DNA from: Dehalococcoidia bacterium
GTDB lineage: Bacteria; Chloroflexota; Dehalococcoidia; UBA2979
Direction: 5' to 3'
NCBI GenBank assembly: GCA_022451865.1
Contig: JAKUNM010000009.1
Coordinates: forward strand, 1 to 36,974
DNA length: 36,974 bases
The position numbers and the translations under genes were made by a program. The notes under the pieces were generated by a model. It was not told where the DNA came from. It saw only the letters and a program-made list of their open reading frames with translations, and ran no database searches. Below are positions 6,608 to 7,170 of the stretch, one piece after another; within the stretch, counting starts at the first letter, position 1, and the number at the start of each line of letters is the position of its first letter.

Positions 6608-6635
6608 TTGACATGTTGTCACAGATAAGTATGAT
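6608..6635 (+). promoter_or_regulatory. Sigma-70-type promoter driving the c-di-AMP riboswitch transcript
   Basis: TTGACA at 6608-6613 and TATGAT at 6630-6635 are separated by 16 nt, close to the consensus housekeeping promoter. Transcription would begin near 6642, about 30 nt before the aptamer, on the strand of the zinc-ribbon gene. Confidence 0.7.
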
Positions 6636-6670
6636 CTTGTTAAAACAATCACAACCTAAAAGGTTGTATA

Positions 6671-6793
6671 GCTGCTGAATCTTTGATTATGAATTCATAA
6701 TCGAGATCGGGGGAACCATTAATTGGGGTGAACTCTTTTCAAAGAGCGGGTGTCCTGACAACCCGAACCCGTCAGCTAACCTCGTAAGCAATT
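6671..6793 (+). promoter_or_regulatory. Cyclic di-AMP riboswitch (ydaO/yuaA class)
   Basis: The segment carries the hallmark conserved blocks of this aptamer in order: GCTGAATC near the 5' end, GGGGGAACCA, TTGGGGTGAA, then CCCGAACCCGTCAGCTAACC and a closing strand AAGCAATT. The last pairs imperfectly with AGCTGCT at the 5' side to form P1. From memory, the blocks match the Thermoanaerobacter aptamer closely. A perfect GATTATGAATTCATAATC hairpin fills the variable P2 arm. The class binds c-di-AMP and usually turns genes off for potassium or osmolyte transport and cell-wall remodelling. Here the only downstream gene is a 70-aa zinc-ribbon protein. Confidence 0.93.
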
Positions 6794-6805
6794 TTCAGGC
6801 CAATT

Positions 6806-6842
6806 CGGTAATTTTACCGGAGCACTAGATAGGAGTGCAGGC
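6806..6842 (+). promoter_or_regulatory. Likely expression platform: two hairpins, the second holding the ribosome binding site
   Basis: Just after the aptamer, CGGTA-ATTT-TACCG (6806-6819) forms a short hairpin. Next GCACT (6822-6826) can pair with AGTGC (6834-6838), placing most of the AGGAG ribosome site (6831-6835) in its loop and stem. There is no U-run terminator. This suggests translational rather than transcriptional control of the gene at 6843. Confidence 0.5.
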
Positions 6843-7055
6843 ATGATAGTGAGTCAACCACCTAAGAATTGTCCCCGATGTCGTGGTCTCATGTTAATAG
6901 AAGATGATTGGTACGGAAAATTCGGTACATGTATTGCATGTGGTTATGTACATGATAGTGAACGTTGTGATCCCAAAGATATTGAGGAAGAAGAACGTTT
7001 ATTAGCTGGGAAGCAGCGTCGTCGCCAACCATCACATGGAAAACTGCGTTTGTAA
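6843..7055 (+). CDS. Small zinc-ribbon protein under a c-di-AMP riboswitch
   Basis: A 70-aa protein with CPRC at 11-14 and CIAC at 31-34, a four-cysteine zinc ribbon (C-x2-C, 16 residues, C-x2-C). The segment between, GLMLIEDDWYGKFGTCIACGYVH, is like the ribbons that end many RNA- or DNA-binding proteins. An acidic stretch (DPKDIEEEER) and a basic tail (GKQRRRQPSHGKLRL) follow. ATG at 6843 lies 7 nt after AGGAG. The gene stands alone between the riboswitch and leuB, which has its own promoter candidate. I do not recognise a named family. Its riboswitch hints at a role in c-di-AMP-linked stress, envelope or ion control, which is inference. Confidence 0.8.
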   Translation: MIVSQPPKNCPRCRGLMLIEDDWYGKFGTCIACGYVHDSERCDPKDIEEEERLLAGKQRRRQPSHGKLRL

Positions 7056-7076: not shown

Positions 7077-7109
7077 AGTAAATCCTTGGTCATTGACTGA
7101 GGATTTACT
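7077..7109 (+). terminator. Long inverted repeat after the zinc-ribbon gene, possible terminator
   Basis: AGTAAATCCT (7077-7086) and AGGATTTACT (7100-7109) are perfect 10-bp complements, with an inner GTC-ATT-GAC extending the stem. No T-run follows on the plus strand, so it may act as an RNA-stabilising 3' end, a Rho-linked site or an operator instead of a classic terminator. Confidence 0.4.
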
Positions 7110-7164
7110 TGCTTAAAATATAGACTTGTTACAAAATTTCCCCTGAAATTAACGGTTTAATTTA

Positions 7165-7170
7165 TATAAT
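7165..7170 (+). promoter_or_regulatory. -10 element for leuB
   Basis: A perfect TATAAT lies 39 nt before the leuB start. I see no convincing -35 at the usual distance. The TAGGAG ribosome site begins at about 7196. Confidence 0.4.

Follow-up and report, generated by a model that had tools for sequence, protein, structure and literature searches.

The stretch of DNA considered here (the window) comprises the 36,974 nucleotides of contig JAKUNM010000009.1, positions 1 to 36,974 of the forward strand, from the assembly GCA_022451865.1 of a Dehalococcoidia bacterium. Within it, a promoter, a c-di-AMP (ydaO/yuaA) riboswitch aptamer, and an open reading frame (ORF) for a four-cysteine protein follow one another on the same strand, and the ORF is the only gene before an inverted repeat (Table 1). 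Further downstream, 154 nt beyond the ORF and again on the same strand, lies the start of leuB, which has a promoter-like site of its own at 7143-7170.

Table 1. Features of the riboswitch locus (positions within the window)
Position	Strand	Feature	Basis
6608..6635	+	sigma-70-like promoter, TTGACA-16 nt-TATGAT	11 of 12 matches; same bases kept in two congeners (loci L031 and L032)
6629..6655	+	window version of the conserved post -10 element (TATGATCTTGTTAAAACAATCACAACC); in relatives CTTGTYGTCACAATCAC or a TGTKAC-N4-GTCACA palindrome	degenerate in the window itself, so weak here
6663..6805	+	c-di-AMP (ydaO/yuaA) riboswitch aptamer, RF00379	covariance model
6754..6758	+	5' strand of the aptamer pseudoknot (CCTGA, P5 loop)	complementary in homologues
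6795..6799	+	3' strand of the aptamer pseudoknot (TCAGG)	terminator left arm in sister families
6804..6821	+	hairpin between aptamer and ribosome-binding site (TTCGGT-AATTTT-ACCGGA)	position conserved in the family; helix 10, 76% of cells paired, three pairs with changes on both sides
6822..6838	+	small hairpin GCACT-AGATAGG-AGTGC holding the Shine-Dalgarno (SD) sequence AGGAG (6831-6835), 7 nt before the ATG	sequence; same in the two congeners
6843..7055	+	70-aa zinc-ribbon protein (ZnR), CPRC...CIAC, with C-terminal KQRRRQPSHGKLRL	sequence; conserved family
7077..7109	+	near-perfect inverted repeat after the ORF (AGTAAATCCTTGGTCATTGACTGAGGATTTACT), probable transcript end; no U-tract	sequence; a similar repeat follows the ORF in L031 and L032

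The riboswitch and its gene

The aptamer was found by a cmscan search against Rfam, with a score of 86.5 bits against a gathering score of 38 (E 5e-19), covering the full model (1-134). It is the only Rfam hit in the window and the only copy of RF00379 in the 1.40-Mb, 84.7%-complete assembly. P1, P3, the other stems, and the pseudoknot all form, although one P3 pair is a mismatch. When the stems were examined across an alignment of homologues, 84% of cells were paired, as against 39-54% in controls where the strands were slid. The alignment, made by MAFFT, misaligns the pseudoknot strands, so its count for that helix (39% paired) is not a fair one and is not used. The promoter is conserved in two congeners, while the flanks diverge.

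The initial annotation had placed a c-di-AMP riboswitch with almost complete conserved blocks at 6671-6842, a region that covers most of the aptamer plus the leader up to the ATG, and had proposed the zinc-ribbon gene as its sole target and as a new type of c-di-AMP effector gene. That interpretation is supported, surviving the computational tests proposed with it: the covariance hit is strong, the pairing of riboswitch and ORF is syntenic in relatives, and the genome encodes a CdaA-type cyclase. Two qualifications are needed. In relatives, the same riboswitch class also precedes osmolyte-type genes and other small four-cysteine proteins, so this is one target of a regulon. Also, nothing shows what the protein binds, so "effector" means no more than a regulated target gene.

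Conservation of the pairing

A search with the 70-aa protein found 37 relatives, 70-100% identical, in MAGs titled Chloroflexi or Dehalococcoidia (a few titled Dehalococcoides or Thermoflexus). All 37 have RF00379 just upstream. Viral contigs gave no relative. In 294 genomes of the class, a profile finds 111 full-length copies, with a sharp gap to generic zinc ribbons (the weakest full-length copy has an E-value of 3e-23, the next best hit 4e-10), and in 89 of the 111 the aptamer lies just upstream. The 26 copies in the window's own family all have the aptamer on the same contig. Of the 85 copies in other families, 80 were scanned, and 63 of these have RF00379 at the gene; the other five lack its core motif. 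The 22 copies without the riboswitch belong to family f20 (17), family f50 (2), and three single loci, where the protein stays and the riboswitch is missing. The reverse replacement was not seen at this locus. In a sample of 400 genomes of the phylum, no full-length copy was found outside the class.

An ABM-like gene of about 100 aa lies about 50-210 nt downstream of the zinc-ribbon gene, on the same strand, in 47 of 116 loci, but is absent in the window, where leuB follows. In many relatives, a cobalamin riboswitch on the opposite strand lies within 3 kb upstream of the zinc-ribbon gene; the window has cobT/cobU-like genes there without an Rfam hit.

Other copies of RF00379 in the window's family precede genes that, judging from inspection of sequence only, are membrane glycosyltransferase, trehalose-phosphate-synthase-like, nucleotidyltransferase-like, and lysine-aminomutase-like genes. 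Elsewhere in the class, copies at seven loci (L147, L153, L154, L156, L159, L160, and L168) precede several different small four-cysteine proteins that lack the tail described below.

The genome encodes a CdaA-type c-di-AMP synthase (CdaA_N plus DAC), its gene followed by one for a YbbR protein. In a 60-genome sample of the class, all 13 genomes with the zinc-ribbon gene have a DAC gene, against 10 of 47 without it (Fisher p 2e-7, not corrected for relatedness).

The zinc-ribbon protein

The protein family has an almost invariant C-terminal QRRRQPSHGKLRL. Alignment of 29 diverse members leaves Cys4, G15, E20, D22, G34, and the tail QRRRQPSHG..RL invariant, and across the class 19 of about 70 positions are invariant. 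Codons of the tail vary freely at synonymous positions across the 111 copies (arginine is read by up to six codons), so the ORF encodes a selected protein and is not a chance ORF.

No Pfam or NCBIfam model reaches its cut-off for the window protein. The TFIIB-type zinc ribbon (PF08271) scores 19.2 against 29 bits and the RPB9 zinc ribbon (PF02150) 17.3 against 25.2 bits. Weak similarities are to TFIIB, RPC10, TFS, eS31, and S27ae ribbons. AlphaFold predicts a three-strand ribbon, a helix at 44-60, and an unstructured tail, at modest confidence (pLDDT 69.8). The best match to the predicted fold is the small Thermus thermophilus zinc-finger protein ZifS (TTHA0897, 8yoz), itself weak (E 0.037), followed by RNA-polymerase-associated ribbons; no paper on ZifS was found. 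The CxxC-x16-CxxC ribbon is similar in size to those of TFIIB, RPB9/RPC10/TFS, and ZifS, but for the tail no match was found. Short zinc ribbons common in Chloroflexota (MYxxKSCPRCxxGDL...CxQCGY) have the same ribbon core but lack the QPSHGKLRL tail, and with them the profile E-value goes from 1e-33 or better to about 1e-10. No paper was found that links the protein to c-di-AMP, nor any relevant one on c-di-AMP riboswitches in Chloroflexi or Dehalococcoidia, in a search that did not extend to the gene tables of Nelson 2013 (PMC3830699) and Block 2010 (PMC2916388).

Predicted logic of control

In six sister families (f33, f34, f53, f59, f68, and f70), the zinc-ribbon leaders carry U-tract terminators. 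A first scan found 35. In a stricter scan, 26 of 29 use the aptamer's own pseudoknot strand (GAAAGGCC type) as the left arm of the terminator, against 1 of 15 terminators (that of locus L173) in other RF00379 leaders of the class (Fisher p 8e-8, relatedness not corrected). Two of the three exceptions are in the window's own family, and the third (L235) can also form the overlapping stem by eye. Amongst the leaders of the other four-cysteine proteins, L156 also shows a pseudoknot-overlapping terminator by eye. When the aptamer strands are made unavailable, the mean probability of the terminator base falls from 0.77 to 0.07 for zinc-ribbon leaders but stays at 0.89 to 0.86 for others. A stem of at least 7 bp on the pseudoknot strand is seen in 25 of 29 leaders and in 8% of shuffles. 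Many leaders of other genes show the classical layout instead, for example GAGGCATAG:CTATGCCTC competing with a CCCGAGG..CCTCGGG terminator.

By the reasoning published for a tandem Na+/c-di-AMP leader (PMC9337991), overlap of the aptamer and a terminator arm means ON, and a separate terminator means OFF. The pseudoknot strands are present in the crystallised ligand-bound RNA, and its pseudoknot is described as stable (PMC5393176), although it might form without ligand.

The window's own family mostly lacks U-tract terminators, and there is none in the leader of the window itself, which therefore does not show the intrinsic terminator, apart from the aptamer strands, of the usual transcriptional OFF type. 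Modelling the accessibility of the SD sequence gave no direction: over 49 terminator-less leaders it did not change consistently between the modelled states (14 up, 16 down).

A second element at the promoter

Outside family f33, most promoters of this gene carry a TGTKAC-N4-GTCACA-like palindrome over the -10/+1, starting 27-29 nt after the start of TTGACA, including in lineages with no riboswitch. The pattern TTGACA-N20..23-TGT-N8-TCACA gave 32 hits in 148 genomes, of which 24 by coordinates are at this gene, and the reversed control pattern gave none. In family f1, the 17-mer CTTGTYGTCACAATCAC was found once each in 23 genomes, 22 of them at this promoter. A dedicated DNA-binding factor is implied, and autoregulation is one guess.

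Discussion

The aptamer, its dedicated promoter, its conserved pairing with this gene, the strong selection on the protein, and the presence of a CdaA cyclase in the genome are all established by computation. Binding and expression data are lacking, and related genomes are not independent samples, but it is likely that the locus contains a working c-di-AMP riboswitch dedicated to this gene, and very likely indeed that the aptamer binds c-di-AMP. In the six sister families, c-di-AMP probably turns the gene ON, because the aptamer pseudoknot strand is also the left arm of the terminator, so folding of the bound aptamer destroys the terminator. In the window's own family the direction of control is unresolved, with ON only slightly favored by homology, acting at translation or through a noncanonical terminator. 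As for the protein, it is about as likely as not that it is a regulator binding nucleic acid or RNA polymerase, with its basic C-terminal tail as the contact surface. In this picture, high c-di-AMP would raise the level of the protein while lowering osmolyte-type genes through OFF riboswitches of the same class.

Perhaps, however, the riboswitch is a classical OFF switch here too, with c-di-AMP lowering expression of the protein (in the window's family, at translation). This remains possible, though less favored. All characterised c-di-AMP riboswitches in the papers consulted are OFF (PMC9960051, PMC6488665, PMC9337991), and there are precedents for leaders without a canonical terminator in those of Corynebacterium glutamicum nlpC and Streptomyces rpfA (PMC9960051). 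Both control cell-wall genes, and that of nlpC was shown to be OFF, probably at translation. On the other hand, the terminator in six sister families is built from the pseudoknot strand, the opposite of OFF leaders in the same class, and no consistent masking of the SD sequence was found in the modelled bound state.

Or perhaps the riboswitch-gene pair is as described, but the protein is not a regulator at all, rather a ribosome-associated or enzyme-accessory protein whose amount tracks c-di-AMP. Small basic zinc ribbons are common in ribosomal proteins, and the weak hits include eS31 and S27ae. This too remains possible, though less favored, as the closest sequence and fold matches are mostly RNA-polymerase and TFIIB ribbons, though all of them are weak. 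It is very unlikely that the zinc-ribbon ORF is a bystander and that the riboswitch really controls a longer operon (leuB in the window), despite the proximity of leuB, or of the ABM-like gene in other loci, since the next gene differs between lineages while the zinc-ribbon gene is constant, an inverted repeat follows the ORF in the genus, and leuB has its own promoter-like site. That the ORF, short and directly following a structured RNA, is not translated and is conserved only as part of a longer structured RNA can be all but dismissed, since the amino acids of the tail are invariant while their codons vary and the Cys4 spacing is kept.

The riboswitch class is known, its known targets being mainly K+ or osmolyte transporters or cell-wall enzymes; what differs here is a small zinc-ribbon gene as the target and, in sister families, a terminator that reuses the pseudoknot strand. 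A tentative reading, not the favored one, goes further: a c-di-AMP-activated variant of the class may drive a dedicated, otherwise unknown zinc-ribbon regulator, so that one second messenger turns this regulator up while turning osmolyte-type genes down through OFF riboswitches of the same RNA family in the same cell. The regulator may also bind its own promoter operator.

The pairing adds a protein family with a near-invariant tail and no known function to the c-di-AMP regulon, in a large group of mostly uncultured bacteria. If the predicted logic holds, it would give c-di-AMP riboswitches with inverted output. It also offers a way in to what c-di-AMP does outside Firmicutes and Actinobacteria.
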